Of a stretch of DNA of 38,461 nucleotides, positions 4,062 through 16,418 are shown piece by piece. The position numbers were made by a program, and so were the translations under genes. Under the pieces are notes generated by a model. It saw only the letters and a list, made by a program, of their open reading frames with translations, was not told the origin of the DNA and did no database searches. The first letter of the stretch is position 1; every line of letters starts with the position of its first letter. The DNA is from a bacterium (GTDB lineage Bacteria; Pseudomonadota; Alphaproteobacteria; Rhizobiales; JAKIUO01), in contig JAAETJ010001201.1 of assembly GCA_024228495.1 (NCBI GenBank), forward strand, positions 1 to 38,461. The letters run 5' to 3'.

Positions 4062-4742
4062 ATGCGAAAGGTTCGGTGGATATTTGGGATCATGGTGTTC
4101 ATGGTAGCGCTGTTCTTTGCGCTCAATTTCAGCTGGACGCATGCGGCAGTGGCGTGGTTGGTGACCAAGTCAGAATGCCCCGCAAAGCTCATAGTGCTGG
4201 CGAAAAAAGATGTTGCGGCCCTGTTTGGCAGCACGCGCTCATCGCCCTTGTGGGTGTGCACCACAAAGCCACTGCTGGGTCTTGATATTTCTCATGGCAC
4301 GACGCGGAGCGCTTTGTTTCTACCCTCGATCATTGTCATTGGTAAAAAGGGGCCAAAGCGCAATGTTATGGCACATGAATATGTTCACGCCGAACTGGCG
4401 GCAAGGTTGGGCGCTCGTTACGCGCTCATTCCCACCTGGTTCGATGAGGGGCTGGCCATGCAGGTCGATTACCGGCGTTTATATACACCCAGGGCGTTGG
4501 CTCGATATCTGCGGCGCAAGGAGGTGCAAAAACCCTATCTTGATGACCTTGCGTCTTCTTTTCGCTTCTACAGACGCGGCAAAGGCAGGATAAACTACGC
4601 CTTCGCCAATTGCGTTGTTAAAAACTGGCTGAAGGCGCAAGGGGCGAAGCAACCCCTCAAGTTGATCACTAATATCGAATGGAAAAAATCCTTCCCAATC
4701 GAACAATTCCGTAAGGCAGAGCAAAGATGTTTGTTGCGTTGA
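4062..4742 (+). CDS. Membrane-anchored gluzincin-like peptidase (peptidase MA-like)
   Basis: A 226-aa protein with a GGGGGAGAG ribosome site before ATG. Residues ~5-24 are one hydrophobic segment (signal anchor or signal peptide). HEYVH at 105-109 is an HExxH zinc site, and WFDEGLAMQ places a Glu at 129 as the likely third zinc ligand, the gluzincin arrangement of peptidase MA-like families. The catalytic domain is therefore probably periplasmic. The usual family size and the short linker fit, but substrate and partners are unknown. It is convergent with mrp, with a shared terminator between them. Confidence 0.75.
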   Translation: MRKVRWIFGIMVFMVALFFALNFSWTHAAVAWLVTKSECPAKLIVLAKKDVAALFGSTRSSPLWVCTTKPLLGLDISHGTTRSALFLPSIIVIGKKGPKRNVMAHEYVHAELAARLGARYALIPTWFDEGLAMQVDYRRLYTPRALARYLRRKEVQKPYLDDLASSFRFYRRGKGRINYAFANCVVKNWLKAQGAKQPLKLITNIEWKKSFPIEQFRKAEQRCLLR

Positions 4743-4841: not shown

Positions 4842-6008
4842 CTAGCTTTCCATGGTGATCTTGGTCTTTTTGCCCTCGCGTTTTGCTTTGTGGGCTTCGG
4901 CGTTTGTCCAGGCTTTCTCCGCGATTTGGCTATAGATTTTGGCGTGTGGACCATCTGGATCTGAAACGACGACGGGCTGACCGGCATCTGATTTTTCGCG
5001 GATATCCATGTGCAGCGGAATTTCGCCAAGGAACGGCACCTTGATGCGTTCGGCTTCGGTTTTGGCACCGCCATGACCGAAAATGTCTGAGCGCTCGCCA
5101 CATGATGGGCATTTGAAATAGCTCATATTCTCGACAATGCCGAGCACAGGCACTTTCACCTGTTTAAACATGTTGAGACCCTTGCGCGCATCAATGAGCG
5201 CCAGATCCTGCGGTGTTGAAACGATCACGGCTCCGGCCAGTGGTACGGCCTGTGACATGGTCAATTGCGCATCGCCGGTTCCAGGAGGCATGTCGACTAC
5301 CAGCACGTCGAGCTCGCCCCAGGTGACAAATTGCAACATCTGAGTGAGAGCTGACATGACCATAGGACCACGCCAGATCATTGGCGCATCCTCATCAACG
5401 AGAAAACCAATGGACATGACTTCCATGCCAAATGCTTTCATGGGTTTGATTTGATCGTTTTCAGCAGCTTCCGGGTTTTGTCCCTGCAAGCCAAGAAGGC
5501 GCGGGATGGAAGGACCGTAAATATCAGCGTCCAAGATGCCGGTGCGAAGACCATTGGCCTGGAAGGAAAGCGCCAGATTGATAGCTGTTGTTGATTTGCC
5601 AACACCACCTTTGCCAGAGGCAACGGCAATGATTGAACCAATATTTGGCATAGGTATTTGACCGCCGGTGCCACCAGAACCTGGAGCGCCAGCACGGCCA
5701 CCGCCGGTTGAACAGCCGCCACCGCCAGTATCTGGTGCCGAAGCTTCTCCGGCGTTACGGTCTGCGGTCAGGGTCACAGCAACTGATTCGACGCCATCGA
5801 TACGGCCAACAATTTCTTCAGCAGCTTCGCGCATGGGTTCAAGCTCTTTGGCACGCCCTGGCTCAACGCTAATGGCAAAATAGACCTTGCCCTTGTTTAT
5901 TACGATCGGGGAGACGATACCCAGCGATACGATATCATCGCCCTGATCTGGTCCCTTGACTTTTTGCAGCATTTCAAGGACGCGTTCCTTGGTGAGGTTG
6001 GTGCTCAT
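4842..6008 (-). CDS. mrp: Mrp/ApbC-type Fe-S cluster carrier P-loop ATPase
   Basis: A 388-aa cytoplasmic protein of the Mrp/NBP35 family, which binds and transfers 4Fe-4S clusters to apoproteins. The ATG at 6008 gives MSTNLTKERVLEML and has GGGAG upstream; the longer ORF start at 6050 is rejected. Residues ~1-85 are a DUF59/MIP18 domain. A Gly/Ser-rich linker (~90-118) leads to the deviant Walker A SGKGGVGKST (131-140). DADIYGPSIPR and VVDMPPGTGDAQLT are family hallmarks, and the cluster-binding CPSC is at 300-303. The length is normal. The nearby DUF971 gene recalls the domain content of HCF101. Confidence 0.95.
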   Translation of the reverse strand: MSTNLTKERVLEMLQKVKGPDQGDDIVSLGIVSPIVINKGKVYFAISVEPGRAKELEPMREAAEEIVGRIDGVESVAVTLTADRNAGEASAPDTGGGGCSTGGGRAGAPGSGGTGGQIPMPNIGSIIAVASGKGGVGKSTTAINLALSFQANGLRTGILDADIYGPSIPRLLGLQGQNPEAAENDQIKPMKAFGMEVMSIGFLVDEDAPMIWRGPMVMSALTQMLQFVTWGELDVLVVDMPPGTGDAQLTMSQAVPLAGAVIVSTPQDLALIDARKGLNMFKQVKVPVLGIVENMSYFKCPSCGERSDIFGHGGAKTEAERIKVPFLGEIPLHMDIREKSDAGQPVVVSDPDGPHAKIYSQIAEKAWTNAEAHKAKREGKKTKITMES

Positions 6009-6086
6009 TGGCTTTCTTACTCCCTGGGTGGCCTCATGACAGAGGCGCATTTTTTAACTCGACATAATGCAAGGCTTATGAGACCT

Positions 6087-6669: not shown

Positions 6670-9102
6670 ATGTTGAATCCTATCCGCTTGATAAATCGTC
6701 TGTTTGAATTCCTGGCCGAGTTACCAGCAAGGCTTGTGCGCCTGCCGGTAGCAGTCATGGAGCTGATCCTTGATATTCGTTTCTGGATACGGCTGGTGCT
6801 TTATGGTATTGGTTCATTTTTACTGATCCTGACGCTGGCCTATGCCGCTCCTGCGATATGGGCGCCCATGGCTCTCAAATGGCTGGAGCCACAGCTGGAT
6901 TATTTTGACCAGCGCTCGAAGGGCATCGGTATTTATAGTGCCCGCGGTGATTATCTGGGTATTTTCGATCCGCGAATGGAGCCTGACTTCAATTCCTCTT
7001 CCAAGACTATCGAATGGGAAAGCTTTACCGCCTATCCCGATCACAAGTCGGAGCATGTCGACAAGGTGCCACCTCATTACTGGTCCTGCCTGCACTACCT
7101 GGAAGATCGTAATCTCGGAAAACCGATGCTCAGTTTTCGCAAGGGCTTCCCCTATATTCAGTTCGGCAATCTCTACGGTATTGATCCGCAAGGTCTGATG
7201 CGCATGCCGCGCAAGGCTGTTTCATATATTCTTGGCCAATCCAGTGGTGGCGGTGGTTCGACGATCTCCATGCAGCTGGCCCGCAGCTATTACGCGTCAT
7301 TGCCGTCGCGCAAGGAAAGCTATCTCGACAAGCTGAAGCGCAAAACCTCGGAATGGTGGCTGGCACCGATCATTCAGCACAAGCTGGCTTCTGATGGAGA
7401 TTTCGGACCGCTGCAAAAATGGGCCGCCAATCATCTGCCGTTGGTGCAAAGGGTAGGGGGATCGCTTTACGGGGTTGGTCTCACCAGCCGCATTATCTTT
7501 GGCAAGCCATCAAGCGAGATGACCCGTGCCGAGCAGTTTGTGCTGGCGGCCGCCGTAAATCGTCCCATTCAGGTGTTGCCCAGTAAAAATCCGCATATCA
7601 ACAAGCGGCGGTTGAGCAATTGGCGTCATATCACGGCGATCCGGGCGCAAAGATGCGTGAAAGCGCTGGTTGCTGACCAGCGTGAAGAAAAGAACCTGAC
7701 GATTGCCTTGTCGACCATGTCCATAGATGTACCGCAAGCAAGGCTCGCTCCAGACAAGGAAGCCGAATTAAAGCTATTGTCGCGCTCGCAAGGGGTTATT
7801 CGCAACAATCCTGTACGCCGGGCCAATCATTTCGCGCCCTCTAGCCGGTTTGGGGCACGCGCCGAAATGGTGGATTTGTATGGGGCTGAGTGGCGTGAGT
7901 ATGTGGCCCGCGTCGATCTCACACTCAATTCTGCCCAGAATATTCGTTTTCGTGAAAAGCTAGCCAAACAGCTGGGCAAGCTCAATAGCAAATATCGCAG
8001 CAAGCTTGATCGGCGTTATACGCTCGACGTGCTGGCCCGCAAACGCGGCAAGCGCCTGCCGGACATTATTGTCGCGGCTGCCGATGAAAGCGGCAAAATC
8101 GTGCGCTATTTCGAAGCTGGGCAAAATGCTCATTATTTTGGTTCCAGCCCAGCCAGAGACAGGCTATCAGGGCGCTATGAACGTGATCGCGAGGGGCGTG
8201 CCGTCGCCTCGGTTGCAAAGATGATCGGGGCCATCCTTATTGCCAATGATGGAGAGGATACGCCTGACAGCAAATATCTGGATACCGATGCGCCGTCCAG
8301 GGGATTGCAAAGCTGTCGGCGAAAAGGCGGCAATCGGCGTTTGCGGCGATCTGAAACCGTATTCGCATGTTCCATGTCGCAGCCATTGGCCAGTCGATTG
8401 TTCAAGCTGGGGCAGGGCACCGTGCGCCAAAGTGTGGACCGGTTTGGCTTCAACATGCCCTTTGCTAAGAAAAAGGAAGACGAGACGCCGCCGTCGACGG
8501 CTGTAGCGCATGGGCTGATCACCGGCAGCCCACAAAAGGTGCATCATATGGCCTCGGTCATTCTTGCGTCTCTGACGGGGCGTGGATCAAAGCCTGTGAG
8601 TGTGCCGACAATTATCGCCAATCATTCTCAAACGTCGCGCAAGAGCGAGCAGCTCGACAAGTTGGAAACCACCAGCGATATTATTCCTGATCGTGTGATC
8701 GAACCCGTCGGGCAGGGCATGTTGCGCCGTTTGCTGTCGGCGCCGCTTTGTTATGAAGTGAAAGGTAAGCGTTACGGCACGCTTAAAAGCCAGAGTAAAT
8801 GGTGTGCGAATCGCCATAAATATATCCAGTTGCATTTTGCTAAAACAGGTACGCAGACCACAGTCGATGCAGATACAACCGTTGATGTCTGGGTGGCGGG
8901 TGGCGTGCAATTTACGTCAGGTAAAAGCTATTCCTATGTTATTCTCGTGGGATCCGGGGCCGTCAGCCAACCTCTGGGCTATCGTCTTCATTCAAGCCAG
9001 CTAGCGGCCCCTTTATTGGGTGTTTTGATGAAGGATCTGGAGCAACTCGCGACGCCCGTGCAAGCCGCGATTGCGCCAAAAATTGACAATAAAACACAGT
9101 AA
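6670..9102 (+). CDS. Divergent class A penicillin-binding protein (GT51 plus transpeptidase)
   Basis: An 810-aa inner-membrane protein, probably bifunctional in peptidoglycan synthesis. A transmembrane segment lies near residues 40-66. The GT51 glycosyltransferase region has the catalytic Glu in LEDR (E145), then GIDPQGLMR (170-178) and GGSTISMQLARS (195-206). The gap between ED and GID is about 16 residues longer than in the usual EDxxFxxHxGxD motif. The transpeptidase domain shows SVAK (S514/K517) and KTG (725-727). The SxN position appears as SMS (568-570), with Ser in place of Asn. The motif order is complete, so it is not a truncated gene. It stands alone after a long upstream region and precedes the 1234-aa membrane protein. 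Not a close match to standard PBP1a or PbpC from memory. Confidence 0.85.
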   Translation: MLNPIRLINRLFEFLAELPARLVRLPVAVMELILDIRFWIRLVLYGIGSFLLILTLAYAAPAIWAPMALKWLEPQLDYFDQRSKGIGIYSARGDYLGIFDPRMEPDFNSSSKTIEWESFTAYPDHKSEHVDKVPPHYWSCLHYLEDRNLGKPMLSFRKGFPYIQFGNLYGIDPQGLMRMPRKAVSYILGQSSGGGGSTISMQLARSYYASLPSRKESYLDKLKRKTSEWWLAPIIQHKLASDGDFGPLQKWAANHLPLVQRVGGSLYGVGLTSRIIFGKPSSEMTRAEQFVLAAAVNRPIQVLPSKNPHINKRRLSNWRHITAIRAQRCVKALVADQREEKNLTIALSTMSIDVPQARLAPDKEAELKLLSRSQGVIRNNPVRRANHFAPSSRFGARAEMVDLYGAEWREYVARVDLTLNSAQNIRFREKLAKQLGKLNSKYRSKLDRRYTLDVLARKRGKRLPDIIVAAADESGKIVRYFEAGQNAHYFGSSPARDRLSGRYERDREGRAVASVAKMIGAILIANDGEDTPDSKYLDTDAPSRGLQSCRRKGGNRRLRRSETVFACSMSQPLASRLFKLGQGTVRQSVDRFGFNMPFAKKKEDETPPSTAVAHGLITGSPQKVHHMASVILASLTGRGSKPVSVPTIIANHSQTSRKSEQLDKLETTSDIIPDRVIEPVGQGMLRRLLSAPLCYEVKGKRYGTLKSQSKWCANRHKYIQLHFAKTGTQTTVDADTTVDVWVAGGVQFTSGKSYSYVILVGSGAVSQPLGYRLHSSQLAAPLLGVLMKDLEQLATPVQAAIAPKIDNKTQ

Positions 9103-9424: not shown

Positions 9425-12400
9425 GTGCTTGAGTGGTTGATGAGGAAAATATTTCCAGGTTGGCTTAAAAAACCCCTTTCACGCAAGGAAACGGCACGTC
9501 AGGCAACGCCCCTTGTAAAGGCCGGTGATGGCCGCCGCATTGAGGAGCCACCCCTTGGCAAATCTGTCAGAGCCACCTTCGATGATCAAAATGCGCTTGC
9601 AACAGATGTTGGATATGAGCCACTGGTCGCTGACATACCTTCACAGCCGGGCTCGTTAGATAAATCTGACGATCAATATATGACTAATAATCGCGAGATA
9701 TCAGACAGCGGTGAGAACGAAAAGGTCCATATTTTTCATTTCCGTGCCTGGTTTTATGCGGACCCTGTAAAGGCGTCGCTTACCCTTGGTCTGGCTTTTT
9801 TATCTTGGCTTGCCACCTATACCGGTATGCTGGAGCTCATTCAGGCCAATTCGGGCACTGTCGATATCGGTTCGCGCATCGCCATTGGCTTTGCGGTCAT
9901 GATGCTGATGTTGATGATACTTTATCTGCTCGACAGTCTTTATGCGGGTGGTACACCCACCTGGATCAAGCCCCTGTTCGTGTTTGGATATTTGTTCCTG
10001 ACGCTGATTTCCGTGGGCTTTGGTTTTGGTTTTTACTGGAAATATCTTGAAGCCCGGACTGAGGCGACCCGATCCGCGGAAAGCGCCGTGTCGCAGGTGC
10101 AAGTGGCCTTGCAGATCGGCCAATCGCGGCTCGAACAATTACAGAGCACCTTTGCGCAATTGACCTCCTTGTCGACCCAAAAAGCCATACAAGAGCGTGA
10201 TCACGGCAATAGCTGTCCCAACTCGAAACCGGGCGAGGGACCGCGTATGCGTTTGCGCGATAGTGATAGTCAAAAATTTGGTTATGCGGCTGAATATATA
10301 ACGGGTCGTGCTGGCACCGTTAAAGCTGATTTCAATGCGCTCAATGGTGATTTGAAAAAGGTTGTTAGCCGAGATGCCTCGACCATTGGCAAAGATGGTA
10401 CTCGCAACAAGTTTTTACGCGCCCTTGGCCGCAAGCTGGATCTGACTATTGCGCGCTTTAATACGCTGCGCACCGATCCGCAATTGCGCCAGTTCCGCGA
10501 GAATTTCGATAAGCGCGCCAGTACTACCCGCTTCCCCAATGGCCGTGGAGGCACGTTCCGTTGTCCAGATGTGCAGTTGCAAACGGCACTACGCGGCGTC
10601 GTGCGGGCGATTGATGATATTCCCGAAATAAAAAACCCAAAGATAGCAGCAGTGGAAGGCTCAGAGGCCGTTATTGAGGCGTTTCGCCGCCTTGCCGTGA
10701 CGCTGGCCGCTTTGCCCACGTTGAAACTGCCACCGAGCCCCGACGAGTTGCGCAAAGCTCGCAAACAGGCGATCAGTGCGGGTCGCAAAGTCGAGGTTTC
10801 CAATGTTGATGCTGGTCTCTCGAAGCGCGATTATATTCCGCTTTCAGCTGCTGTTTTTGTCGATCTGTGTATTTTACTGATTTCGCTCAATCGCAGTTAT
10901 GATCATTTACAGCGTATCCAGAAATCGGTTTCGCGTGCGCGCGCCAGTGAATTTGGCGGCACCATGCTCGATATTTTCGAGGCCCATAAAAACAAGATTT
11001 CCGAAGAAATGCTGGAGATCTTTCATAATGCCGAATTTGAGTATGGGCGCGATTATTATCTCGCGGTGCCATTGGTCAAGGGATCGCAAAAGGCACTGCT
11101 GAGCGACCGTTTGGATCGCAATATTGAAGAAGGCTATCGCTCTGAGCGCGATGATTATGATCGGGCAATTCAAAATCTGGAAAAGGAGATGGCGGGGCTG
11201 CGTTCGTTCAAAATCCAGAATGAAGAACTGCAGGCCAGAAAACTGACGCGTGAACATGCTGATACCTGCCGTAATCACAATCTGTTGCTAAGCAATAGCA
11301 AGCAGCTTCGTGCGACATATCAATCAGATTCGGACGAAGAGTTCAGCAAACGCAGGGATGTCATTCAGGTTGTCGAGGAGCTTGAGAAAACCGCGACCTA
11401 TTTCAAACTTTTGCAAAGACAAGAAGACAAGCTTGCCGGACCTTTGGCGCGGATTGTCACGATTGAAAAAGAAATTGATGAACTGAAAAAGAAGCGCACA
11501 ATCAATCTCAAGCTGGAACGGGACGAAATCAAGGGACGACTGTCCACCGGCTATACCCACGATATTGCCAAGGAATCACGGTTCCTTTCAAATCTGTGCA
11601 TTAGCCTGGAAGCCAATGGTATTTTGCACCTGGCCAGTATATGGCCATTGCAAAGAGTGGTGCGGGCACAATTGAAGCGCCATGACAGTCGCTATTATGC
11701 GCAGGGGCGCCAATACCGGGTTTATCGCTTCCGCAAGGTCGCCGATACGCAAAGTCAGATGGTGCTGGACCTTATCATGGAGGCCGTCAAGCGTTCAGAA
11801 GAGAGCGGCGATTTGAATGATAATGTGTCGCCCCCTCCAGTGCAGATAGATATTGCAGCAGCGGATGAAAAAGCTCGCCTTGAGGAGCAAGAGCGCAAGC
11901 AGGAACTGCTATCGGCAAAAGAAGAGATCGAAAGACTGCAAAAAGAAAAAACAGTCACAATGGAGGCGGCTAAGAGGGCCGGATCTCCGATCAATAAAGA
12001 AGCAGCAGATGATGCGGAGATCGTGACGATCCGTGAGCTTTCCCCCGCAGCCATCAGCCGTGCCAACAAAGGCTTGCGGAGCCATTTTGAGGGCATAGCC
12101 GGAGTAGAAGTGCCAGGAGAGCAGCTGGCAGATTTTATAGCCAAAAGCGATAGTGATAGCATTGGCAAGCCTGTTTTTGTCGAGCAGCCACTGGGTTCTG
12201 GTGACCCCGTTGTGATCGACAGGCAAAAGACATCGGGCGCCGTAAAGAAAATGTTTGGCGGGTTTTTGTCATTTGGCAAAAAGAGCCCAGCCGACAGCTC
12301 GTTGCTTGGGAGCGCTAAATCCGGGGATCTTGCCAGGTTCCGTCGTGAGGATGAGATCAACATCGCTTCACAGGATCTGATTGAGGACCGTCGCAACAGT

Positions 12401-13129
12401 GACGGTTTGAGTGCGGATACACTCGATCATTCGGAAAAAGAAATTGAGGAAGATCTGCCCGTCGCTTCTATGGATGCGGCGACAGAACCATCAATTGAGA
12501 GTGAAGAACTTGTTCTTCATAAAGCAAGCTTGAGCGACCCTGAACCTGAGGCGAGCGATATGGACGCAAAAAAAGACGAGCCTTTTGTGGCTGTTAAGCC
12601 AATCACTGAATTTGCCGAATCAACTCCCTCGATTCTTTCGAGATTAAGTGCAGGTGAAAAAGAAAAGCCCGGTGAGCGTCAAGTTAATGAAGATAGTTTG
12701 CTGCCGTCAAGGCCAGAGCCCCGCATCGAGGCGCAACCTGCCCCCGAATCACCAGAGCAATCGGATCGCTTGAGCAATGATCCTGTGTCTGCACGAATTG
12801 CAGAGCTACAGCGGGGCTTGCAAGAACGCGAAATTGGACGCAGCGATAGGGCCACCGCCAAGAACGCCCAGACAGTAGAGCGCAAACCATTGACAGATCC
12901 TGTGATACTGGGGCCTGGAGAGGCAAGTCAGGATCCTGGTTCAATGCTAATGGCGCGGATGAACGCTAAATCAAAAGGGACATATGATGAGCCCTCAGAG
13001 GCTGATGACTTCAAGGAAGGCGCAATGCCGGGCTTTTTGAAGGGAGATGATTTTCTCGATGAAGCGTCCGAAGAAATGAAGGCGCAGAGCCTGGCGAAGC
13101 GATTTAGCCCAAATGGCGATAAAAAATAG
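9425..13129 (+). CDS. Uncharacterised 1234-aa membrane protein with coiled coil and acidic tail
   Basis: Not recognised. GTG start with AGGAG seven bases upstream. A basic, then acidic cytoplasmic N-terminus (~1-115) is followed by three hydrophobic helices near 117-138, 152-172 and 183-205. A 260-residue region follows that should be periplasmic and has two cysteines (C264, C380) able to form a disulfide. A fourth helix lies at ~470-490 (IPLSAAVFVDLCILLISL). After it come long charged, coiled-coil-like segments (~500-700 and ~790-850) and a disordered, Glu/Asp/Ser/Pro-rich tail to the end. No nucleotide-binding motif or enzymatic signature was found. The layout (few helices, a cytoplasmic coiled coil, a long flexible tail) suggests a scaffold, but that is inference. 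The 215-aa gene follows on the same strand after 206 bases. Confidence 0.8.
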   Translation: MLEWLMRKIFPGWLKKPLSRKETARQATPLVKAGDGRRIEEPPLGKSVRATFDDQNALATDVGYEPLVADIPSQPGSLDKSDDQYMTNNREISDSGENEKVHIFHFRAWFYADPVKASLTLGLAFLSWLATYTGMLELIQANSGTVDIGSRIAIGFAVMMLMLMILYLLDSLYAGGTPTWIKPLFVFGYLFLTLISVGFGFGFYWKYLEARTEATRSAESAVSQVQVALQIGQSRLEQLQSTFAQLTSLSTQKAIQERDHGNSCPNSKPGEGPRMRLRDSDSQKFGYAAEYITGRAGTVKADFNALNGDLKKVVSRDASTIGKDGTRNKFLRALGRKLDLTIARFNTLRTDPQLRQFRENFDKRASTTRFPNGRGGTFRCPDVQLQTALRGVVRAIDDIPEIKNPKIAAVEGSEAVIEAFRRLAVTLAALPTLKLPPSPDELRKARKQAISAGRKVEVSNVDAGLSKRDYIPLSAAVFVDLCILLISLNRSYDHLQRIQKSVSRARASEFGGTMLDIFEAHKNKISEEMLEIFHNAEFEYGRDYYLAVPLVKGSQKALLSDRLDRNIEEGYRSERDDYDRAIQNLEKEMAGLRSFKIQNEELQARKLTREHADTCRNHNLLLSNSKQLRATYQSDSDEEFSKRRDVIQVVEELEKTATYFKLLQRQEDKLAGPLARIVTIEKEIDELKKKRTINLKLERDEIKGRLSTGYTHDIAKESRFLSNLCISLEANGILHLASIWPLQRVVRAQLKRHDSRYYAQGRQYRVYRFRKVADTQSQMVLDLIMEAVKRSEESGDLNDNVSPPPVQIDIAAADEKARLEEQERKQELLSAKEEIERLQKEKTVTMEAAKRAGSPINKEAADDAEIVTIRELSPAAISRANKGLRSHFEGIAGVEVPGEQLADFIAKSDSDSIGKPVFVEQPLGSGDPVVIDRQKTSGAVKKMFGGFLSFGKKSPADSSLLGSAKSGDLARFRREDEINIASQDLIEDRRNSDGLSADTLDHSEKEIEEDLPVASMDAATEPSIESEELVLHKASLSDPEPEASDMDAKKDEPFVAVKPITEFAESTPSILSRLSAGEKEKPGERQVNEDSLLPSRPEPRIEAQPAPESPEQSDRLSNDPVSARIAELQRGLQEREIGRSDRATAKNAQTVERKPLTDPVILGPGEASQDPGSMLMARMNAKSKGTYDEPSEADDFKEGAMPGFLKGDDFLDEASEEMKAQSLAKRFSPNGDKK

Positions 13130-13335
13130 CATTTTTCGAAAAAGAAAATTTACGAGAAATAATCGTTAGTAATATCAGTAACTTGCGGTTATTTTTTTGA
13201 TTTTATGAAATTTTTCTGTGAAGCGTTAAAACCTTTTTTACCGTCAGGGCGCAAATTGGTTAAACGAAGGCGACACAGGTTCCTGCATTCCGTCGCTTCA
13301 GATTATTTTCCGATATTAAGACGAGGAGTGTGCGA

Positions 13336-13983
13336 ATGGGTTTGCTCTCACAATTTTCTTCCAAAGCCGAACTTCATCGCAGAGAAACGGTCAAGCGTTT
13401 CGACGATTTTATTTTATCTTATGTTAGCAAAGTCGAAAAACAAGCGACCGCTTCCAAAGAAGATCTGAGCGTCACTTTGATCGCTCGCTCTCCAGAGAGC
13501 GCTGTGACAGATGCCGTACGCCGCCATGCCAACACCTTTGTTGATCTGGGCATTGAGGTACGTGTGATTTTTGCCAGCATAGAACCAGCGTCTGTGTTTG
13601 CTGATTTTGTGGAAATGGCCGGTATGTATAATGGCCAAAACTGTCTTGATACTTCTCTTCGCTGGGCGAAAAATCCTGCCCTTTTGGATGCCCATGAACA
13701 GCTTGTGTTGGGGATGGATCATTGTTGGTCCGGCGATGCTATGCGCCGCGCGGCCGATGTGAGGTTTTCACTTGATCTGTTTGAAAGTGCTGGCGCCAAT
13801 GCGGTGGAACTTGGTCGCGCCGCTTTTATCGGGCTTTGGTCGGCAAGTGCCAATATTCCAAAATCACGATTTCGCAATGTTACACCAGCTCGTGCCAACC
13901 AACCAGTTGTCATTGAGATTGAAGGCATCCGTGATCAGTTGCTTGAAAATGCATTTGAAGGTTGTTATGCAACCCGCCACTAG
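13336..13983 (+). CDS. Uncharacterised 215-aa soluble protein
   Basis: Not recognised. The ATG at 13336 is preceded by GAGGAG with a 7-base spacer; an in-frame GTG at 13330 overlaps that ribosome site and is rejected. No signal peptide or membrane segment. Residues ~35-85 (LSVTLIARSPESAVTDAV, then GIEVRVIFASIEPASVF) look like alternating beta strands and helices of a Rossmann-like fold. Residues ~120-160 hold DHCWSGDAMRRAADVRFSLD. No catalytic motif could be assigned. It is the last gene before a strong bidirectional terminator and may be co-transcribed with the large membrane protein upstream, though the 206-base gap leaves room for its own promoter. Confidence 0.75.
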   Translation: MGLLSQFSSKAELHRRETVKRFDDFILSYVSKVEKQATASKEDLSVTLIARSPESAVTDAVRRHANTFVDLGIEVRVIFASIEPASVFADFVEMAGMYNGQNCLDTSLRWAKNPALLDAHEQLVLGMDHCWSGDAMRRAADVRFSLDLFESAGANAVELGRAAFIGLWSASANIPKSRFRNVTPARANQPVVIEIEGIRDQLLENAFEGCYATRH

Positions 13984-13996
13984 ACCAGATCCAGGC

Positions 13997-14056
13997 AAAT
14001 CGCCAAAAGAAAAAGGGTTGGACCATATAGTCCAACCCTTTTTCTTTTGGCGATTT
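13997..14056. terminator. Perfect 27-bp inverted repeat, bidirectional terminator
   Basis: Arm 13997-14023 is the exact reverse complement of 14030-14056, with the 6-base loop CATATA. The inner part (GGGTTGGAC with GTCCAACCC) forms the GC stem and is flanked on both sides by A/T runs that act as U-tracts in either direction. The outer part (AAATCGCC with GGCGATTT) continues pairing. It sits between two convergent stop codons. Confidence 0.92.
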
Positions 14057-14064
14057 AAGGCGTT

Positions 14065-14631
14065 CTAGAAGTCACCTTTTGAAGCACGGTCGAGGACATC
14101 AAGAATAATCCTTTTGACCTCAATGGCTTCTTTCAACAGTTTTGGAGGCAATGCCTTGCCACCATGGATCATCATGTCCATATCCAGTGTATAGATCCAC
14201 AACTTGCCTTGCTTGTCTTCAAGCAGAGAAATGCGGCACGGCAGGTAAGCAGCGTAGGCGTCCGAATGATCAACCATTTTCTGGGCGGTCAAAGGATTAC
14301 AATAAAGATAGATGTTTAGCTTGCGCCAAGGCTTGCCGTTCATGGCGCTGACCTGATCACCAAGCGGCAGGAAACCAACATCCTTGATATTGTTTTCCTG
14401 GGCAATGGTTTTGATTGATTCGTGAACGTCCTCAAAGGAAATGCCATCAGCAACCTGACGTTTCCAAACGGTCGCTTCGGCGGCATTGCCAGAGGCGAGT
14501 AGTTTTTTGCCCATATTCAAATAGGTTTTGCCAGCTCCAGGATCCAGATTACCAAATTTATAGCCAAGTGTGCCGATACCGATCAAAGCGATTAATCCAA
14601 TTAACGCCAGTATATTACGTATAAAACCCAT
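14065..14631 (-). CDS. DUF302-like membrane-anchored protein
   Basis: A 188-aa protein with a single N-terminal hydrophobic helix (~4-24), so anchored with its domain outside the cytoplasm, or secreted. The body (~55-180) resembles DUF302: YLPCRISLLEDKQGKLWIYT followed by a Met-rich stretch (LDMDMMIHGG) fits the conserved C-terminal half of that fold. DUF302 proteins are small, of unknown function, often near redox or sulfur genes. An AGAGGGAAC ribosome site precedes ATG. Convergent with the 215-aa gene across the perfect-hairpin terminator. The domain call is moderate in strength. Confidence 0.7.
   Translation of the reverse strand: MGFIRNILALIGLIALIGIGTLGYKFGNLDPGAGKTYLNMGKKLLASGNAAEATVWKRQVADGISFEDVHESIKTIAQENNIKDVGFLPLGDQVSAMNGKPWRKLNIYLYCNPLTAQKMVDHSDAYAAYLPCRISLLEDKQGKLWIYTLDMDMMIHGGKALPPKLLKEAIEVKRIILDVLDRASKGDF

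Positions 14632-14858: not shown

Positions 14859-16418
<1,560 letters not shown>

Follow-up and report, generated by a model that had tools for sequence, protein, structure and literature searches.

A Conserved Membrane Protein and a Predicted Phospholipase D-Fold Protein Encoded beside an Extra Class A Penicillin-Binding Protein as Candidate Helpers of Cell-Wall Synthesis in Hyphomicrobium-Like Bacteria

Introduction

Members of the Hyphomicrobiales grow at the pole, and Hyphomicrobium and Filomicrobium bud from stalks. To our knowledge, the placement and regulation of the class A penicillin-binding protein (PBP) of polar growth are poorly understood. In Agrobacterium and Sinorhizobium, polar growth is driven by the class A PBP1a and not by the Rod complex (PMC8546619). 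A role in defence and repair has been suggested for the operon of alpha-2-macroglobulin (A2M) and PBP1C (PMC4498604), and MagB of the Pseudomonas Mag A2M complex is a membrane protein with one predicted transmembrane (TM) helix, encoded in an operon with a thioester-less A2M partner (PMC5764988). The phospholipase-D (PLD) superfamily includes Nuc/NucT, Zucchini, the TrmB effector domain, and the DUF1669 of FAM83; the FAM83 pseudo-PLDs are reported to serve as binding modules (PMC6008594).

The locus described here lies in a 38,461-nt stretch of DNA (contig JAAETJ010001201.1; hereafter, the window) and comprises the genes of a 1234-aa protein (LP), a 215-aa protein (SP), and a class A PBP encoded upstream of LP (PBPx). 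PBPx shares GT51 and the SxxK, SxN/S, and KTG motifs with the class A PBPs of the PBP1a and PBP1c families, but its score is far under the PBP_1a cut-off, and its genome already encodes PBP1C and three canonical members of the PBP1a family. In many genomes, the same thioester A2M-PBP1C pair as in the YfhM (ECAM)-PBP1C operon is located directly downstream of LP-SP; however, that operon as described contains no counterpart of LP or SP, and the genome of the window has its A2M-PBP1C elsewhere. Like MagB, LP is a membrane protein that, in many genomes, is encoded together with an A2M; as described, MagB differs in having one predicted TM helix and a thioester-less A2M partner (PMC5764988). SP resembles the PLD superfamily in its predicted fold and conserved active-site His; its single-domain size is that of Nuc, and its degenerate site is like that of the FAM83 pseudo-PLDs (PMC6008594). 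It differs from the superfamily by HxQ and GD.M in place of HKD, by having no detectable sequence family, by its setting in a peptidoglycan cluster, and by a C-terminal (T/P)RH. No description of these genes was found in the titles and abstracts of the papers searched on Hyphomicrobium, PBP, budding, and A2M.

Because the conserved LP-SP pair travels with an extra cell-wall synthase, LP and SP are promising candidates for proteins with a so far undescribed role in assisting cell-wall growth among Hyphomicrobium-like bacteria. The gene set provides a short candidate list for the genetic study of the extra class A PBP in cultured Hyphomicrobium and Filomicrobium, and the reading proposed below, if true, would extend the few known non-catalytic PLD folds to a peptidoglycan setting.

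Results and Discussion

Gene Organization of the Locus

The LP open reading frame (ORF) is located between positions 9425 and 13129 on the forward strand, with a GTG start. This GTG is a mechanical start choice; the frame is open for approximately 20 codons further 5', and the orthologue alignment revealed that the LP ORFs of congeners start upstream, with MVQRSFPVLEW. The SP ORF, on the same strand, runs from 13330 to 13983 when read from a GTG (217 aa) and from 13336 to 13983 when read from an ATG (215 aa), and the ATG at 13336 was preferred because the orthologues begin there. PBPx (6670-9102, forward strand; Pfam Transgly) encodes a divergent class A PBP with GT51 and transpeptidase parts and is the probable functional partner. 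A 30-nt inverted repeat (13997-14056; 97% complementary, with U-runs on both strands) lies between convergent genes and is likely a bidirectional terminator that closes the PBPx-LP-SP unit. The gene of an ApbC/MRP iron-sulphur carrier (4842-6050, reverse strand; NCBIfam PRK11670, 351.9 bits against a cut-off of 348) is the divergent neighbour that marks the ancestral site, and it is outside the module.

The dN/dS values calculated against two congeners were 0.10-0.16 for the whole LP, 0.03-0.05 for its membrane/periplasmic core, 0.15-0.19 for its tail, 0.07-0.10 for SP, and 0.06-0.07 for PBPx. The low values, together with the open frames of LP and SP orthologues across dozens of genomes, indicate that both are genuine genes under purifying selection. 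Searches of LP and SP against Pfam and NCBIfam gave no match even at E<=1, nor did LP, SP, or PBPx match any PADLOC model at E<=1. The whole-alignment searches were likewise negative, with nothing over the cut-off for LP (Pfam, NCBIfam) or for SP, and the profiles found only chance-level matches among PDB sequences (best E 0.19 for LP and 0.46 for SP). The original prediction, namely two real genes on one strand, of no nameable family, between a class A PBP and a very strong terminator, thus holds in each of these respects.

Two further genes of the window are kept in congeners. A DUF302 protein with an N-terminal hydrophobic stretch (14065-14631, reverse strand) is convergent with SP across the terminator and is found there in congeners as well. 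A 226-aa protein (4062-4742, forward strand) gave a weak HExxH-like match (flagellinolysin, E 7e-4, far under the cut-off).

PBPx Is an Additional Class A PBP with Conserved Motifs

PBPx scored 58.2 bits with the Pfam Transgly model (cut-off 27), did not reach the Pfam transpeptidase model, and scored 44.3 bits with PBP_1a (TIGR02074), below the curated cut-off of 508.75. The catalytic Glu of GT51 is conserved as E145 in 49/49 and as E228 in 50/50 aligned sequences. The motifs EDR, GGST, and RKxxE are conserved among 52 orthologues, GGST and RKxxE being invariant where aligned. As for the transpeptidase, SxxK and KTGT are present in all 52 and SxN in 45 of them, with SxS in the other seven, including that of the window. 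Judging from these motifs, PBPx is expected to be enzymatically active. Its genome has four other class A PBP-like genes, namely three of the PBP1a family over the cut-off and that of PBP1C, which makes PBPx the fifth.

Predicted Architecture of LP

The AlphaFold model of LP covers residues 105-862 (pLDDT 76.9, pTM 0.49). Together with the orthologue alignments, it places a cytoplasmic N-terminus before four TM helices (residues ~114-143, 148-173, 181-205, and 467-491). A periplasmic helical domain (~206-460) holds C264 and C380, which are invariant in 80/80 aligned orthologues, so that a C264-C380 disulphide is likely. A conserved cytoplasmic alpha/beta domain (~505-580 and 716-800) is split by a coiled coil (~552-700), and a disordered acidic tail, whose length varies among orthologues, occupies residues 870-1234. 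The four membrane helices and the loop with two cysteines had been read from the sequence beforehand and are supported by the model and the alignment. The long coiled coil, also named beforehand, is present in the window but is not a defining feature, since the alignment showed it to be an insert seen only in the genus of the window and missing from orthologues outside it. The fold search with the LP model recognised no specific fold and returned only generic coiled coils and designed four-helix proteins (best Z 13.1, which is at chance level for helical bundles; model pTM 0.49).

The C-terminal end of LP (positions 13025-13129, forward strand; ending in QSLAKRFSPNGDKK) carries a short linear motif, roughly [ILMV]xxR[FLMI]xP or [ILMV]xxW[FY][AG], which reads LAKRFSP in the window and IAKWFA, IARHFSP, LAGRLRP, or LIRRIAP elsewhere. 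This motif was found in the last 34 residues of 55/83 distinct orthologues, as compared with a mean of 0.7 after shuffling and 0-1 in neighbouring windows of the tail. The excess is real but has no clean P value, because the expression was written post hoc and the sequences are related.

Several candidate assignments were rejected. DUF4407 (PF14362), the topology of which we take to resemble that of LP, gave weak matches in five of 80 LP members (best E 0.18); in the genomes of relatives, its model was never over the cut-off and matched weakly at loci other than LP. A winged-helix reading of the cytoplasmic domain found no clear fit in the helix/strand order of the model. The terminal motif was also considered as a PBPx-linked trait; it is missing in one family without PBPx (f30), but also in some short-tailed LPs with PBPx (L144, L145, and L148), and thus no clean correlation was obtained.

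SP Is Predicted to Have a PLD-Superfamily Fold with a Degenerate Site

SP (13336-13983, forward strand) is a soluble protein whose AlphaFold model (pLDDT 83.8, pTM 0.77) has the fold of the PLD superfamily, where a Rossmann-like fold had been expected. A degenerate HKD site was already hinted at by the motif DAHEQLVLGxxxxWxGDxMRR before the structure model existed. All of the top fold matches belong to the PLD superfamily, with Z of 10-12 over approximately 130 residues: Nuc (1byr; Z 12.1, rmsd 3.2, 135 residues), Zucchini (4h4a; 12.1), NucT (11.6), the TrmBL2 domain (11.5), and FAM83B (10.3). The site residues in the model are R109, H120, E121, Q122 (for Lys), G133, D134 (for Ser), M136 (for Asn), R137, and R138.

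Among 71 SP sequences, R109, H120, E121, W131, G133, R137, and R138 are invariant (71/71). The motif HxK(x)4D(x)6GSxxN is not matched, however: the Lys position is Gln in 66/71 and Lys in 0/71, GS is changed to GD/GE in 71/71, and N to M/L in 71/71. When the Pfam PLD models were searched against the 71 members, only one matched PLDc_2 (E 0.037), and no other PLD model was among the matches listed. The fold match and the residue counts suggest that SP is a PLD-fold protein that has lost the catalytic signature and kept a cationic pocket (R109, H120, R137, and R138).

The C-terminus of SP, after a variable linker, is -(T/P)RH, and the -RH end is found in 57/81 distinct SPs. The SPs of a second family (f31), which mostly keeps SP alone, retain it (...LLRH), and the partner of -RH is therefore probably not LP alone.

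Gene Order and Distribution in Hyphomicrobiales

Gene order was counted at the 80 best-scoring LP loci, restricted to those with enough flanking sequence. In 70/70 loci, the gene next to LP on its 3' side is SP, which has the same orientation (median gap 152 bp). PBPx immediately precedes LP in 43/70 loci, lies a few kb away in four, and is absent from the retrieved flank in 23/70. A2M follows SP in 42/64 loci, and PBP1C comes next in 37/37 where the sequence allows; the CxEQ thioester motif is present in all 42 long A2Ms. The fuller order is PBPx-LP-SP, extended in Hyphomicrobium-like genomes to MoeA-PBPx-LP-SP-A2M-PBP1C. In the genome of the window, A2M and PBP1C are on another contig (C423). 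The original prediction had suggested an undescribed envelope or division module. Since the cluster runs on into A2M and PBP1C in many genomes, an envelope role has become likelier; as to the other half, we have no evidence that favours division over general wall synthesis. At two of the loci inspected, a small, apparently secreted Cys-containing protein (117-123 aa) is encoded 3' of SP (L051:11946-12317 in G036 and L061:4145-4498 in G006).

Because the best-scoring loci were used, divergent families are under-represented in these counts, and the order-wide search, which is less biased, showed exceptions. In 297 Hyphomicrobiales genomes spread over the order, PBPx (threshold E<=1e-100) was found in 34, LP in 44 (45 matches minus G035, which has the paralogue alone), and SP in 55. 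Presence is nested, with LP in 34/34 PBPx genomes and SP in 43/44 LP genomes, the exception being G167, where a contig end cuts LP off. These co-occurrence counts are inflated by conservation along a single vertical lineage. The proposed association of the pair with the neighbouring PBP is supported, in that LP is present in every PBPx genome. In class-wide samples of 240 and 230 genomes, the genome of the window was the sole one with SP and LP, the 229-239 others giving no match, and a search of plasmids for LP gave no match. The named loci are nearly all from Hyphomicrobiales (Hyphomicrobium, Filomicrobium, Rhodomicrobium, Methyloligella, Methyloceanibacter, and MAGs), and the gene set is present in the cultured Hyphomicrobium facile, H. 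sulfonivorans, and Filomicrobium insigne. The LP-SP pair is confined to part of Hyphomicrobiales.

The exceptions come from two families. In f30, PBPx is gone, and six of the seven genomes with both LP and SP have the two genes apart; LP is beside ApbC in several genomes, and SP has been relocated. In f31, ten genomes have SP without LP and PBPx, and in eight of them, SP lies directly beside ApbC, PBPx and LP having been lost (e.g., L178, L181, and L186, with the -LLRH end). The ancestral site has the arrangement of the window, with ApbC/MRP and PBPx-LP-SP pointing away from each other, and the two families represent a deletion series, not independent assembly. The loss patterns indicate that SP is useful without LP and LP without PBPx; PBPx was never seen without LP. 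The predicted conservation of the pair thus applies to the best loci with enough sequence, in all of which the genes are adjacent, and fails in f30, where unlinking is routine, and in f31, where SP mostly stands alone. Accordingly, LP-SP is not an obligate two-protein unit everywhere, and LP cannot depend on PBPx everywhere, because f30 keeps LP without it.

Proposed Function and Alternative Explanations

The reading that we favour, at slightly below an even chance and with the coupling drawn from genomic context, pairs PBPx with LP as its partner in the membrane and makes SP a cytosolic pseudo-PLD adaptor that can also act in the absence of LP; both would belong to a vertically inherited cell-wall synthesis module of Hyphomicrobium-like Hyphomicrobiales. 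PBPx would be an extra class A PBP whose glycosyltransferase/transpeptidase active site appears intact by its motifs, and LP would be its dedicated inner-membrane partner, with an N-in/C-in four-helix membrane part. The periplasmic helical bundle of LP, probably stapled by the C264-C380 disulphide, may contact PBPx or its substrate, and its cytoplasmic domain and long tail with the terminal motif may recruit cytosolic factors that set where or when the synthase works. SP, given its predicted fold and the absent catalytic Lys, would bind a phosphate-bearing or protein ligand via its cationic pocket and might pass the ligand signal to LP and other targets. Since one family retains SP in the absence of LP, SP must be more than an LP subunit. 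The module may have a role at the growth pole. A more specific version, which we regard as possible but doubtful, holds that in Hyphomicrobium-like bacteria, many of which are stalked and budding, and only there, LP and SP form a hitherto undescribed complex that regulates a dedicated class A PBP, and that the cytosolic pseudo-PLD relays a ligand or cell-cycle signal through the disulphide-stapled four-helix membrane protein to the wall synthase at the growth zone. We know of no other PBP regulator with a pseudo-PLD.

Other explanations place the weight elsewhere in the locus. LP could be a membrane receptor that works mainly with SP: a helical sensor in the periplasm would signal to SP, a pseudo-PLD that binds a ligand, and PBPx would be no more than a co-transcribed neighbour. 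A TM-flanked helical bundle is found in sensor proteins (TorS was among the fold matches, Z 9.9), degenerate PLD folds bind ligands or proteins in TrmB and FAM83, and f30 keeps LP and SP without PBPx; however, this arrangement is unlikely given that six of seven f30 genomes have LP and SP at separate sites, that f31 has SP without LP, and that PBPx was never found without LP. Alternatively, LP-SP may be part of an A2M/PBP1C unit for envelope defence and repair, with LP as the sensor or anchor of periplasmic damage, A2M as the protease trap, and the PBPs as the enzymes that mend the wall. A2M-PBP1C is far commoner than LP-SP, approximately one third of the loci lack A2M and PBP1C next door, and in the genome of the window both are on contig C423, all of which makes this explanation rather improbable in spite of the CxEQ A2M after SP in 42/64 loci, the PBP1C in 37/37, the proposed role of A2M-PBP1C in defence and repair (PMC4498604), and the precedent of membrane-anchored A2M complexes such as that of MagB in Pseudomonas (PMC5764988).

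The SP site bears on a further possibility, that SP is a catalytically active nuclease or phosphodiesterase of the PLD superfamily, using His120 with an Arg in place of Lys. The seven residues invariant in 71/71 sequences (R109, H120, E121, W131, G133, R137, and R138) go beyond what a dead site would need, and the nearest folds are those of the nuclease Nuc and of Zucchini. Nevertheless, the Lys of HxK is Gln in 66/71 and never Lys, GS..N has become GD.M, and the Pfam PLD model is unreached (1/71 members, E 0.037), so that activity of this kind seems quite improbable on the sequence evidence. Finally, the genes could be neighbours by history alone, with LP and SP as unrelated lineage-specific housekeeping proteins; the locus was indeed inherited vertically and broken up in two families. 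We consider this very improbable, because LP-SP adjacency is maintained across about a dozen families whose SPs share roughly 25-35% identity, and because the genes have a nested distribution. A module centred on PBPx, with LP as its membrane partner and SP as an adaptor, remains the reading that we prefer.

An LP Paralogue and Neighbouring Cell-Cycle Genes

LP has a shorter paralogue (LP2; approximately 640 aa) of similar layout, and the genomes that carry the one and the other are nearly the same. In the genome of the window, LP2 is divergent from the gene of envelope integrity protein A (EipA) and close to that of the cell-cycle regulator GcrA (LP2/EipA/GcrA locus on G000:C214; L068:8186-9298, reverse; 9845-11779, forward; 12970-13515, reverse). 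In Methyloligella-like genomes, LP2 is convergent to SP. The setting of LP2 fits the envelope reading.

The window also encodes a DNA methylase (14859-16166, reverse strand) that is homologous to a CcrM-like gene (N6_N4_Mtase and RAMA). A homologue was also found near LP2 at another locus (L069), and both LP-family loci are thus near cell-cycle genes in some genomes.
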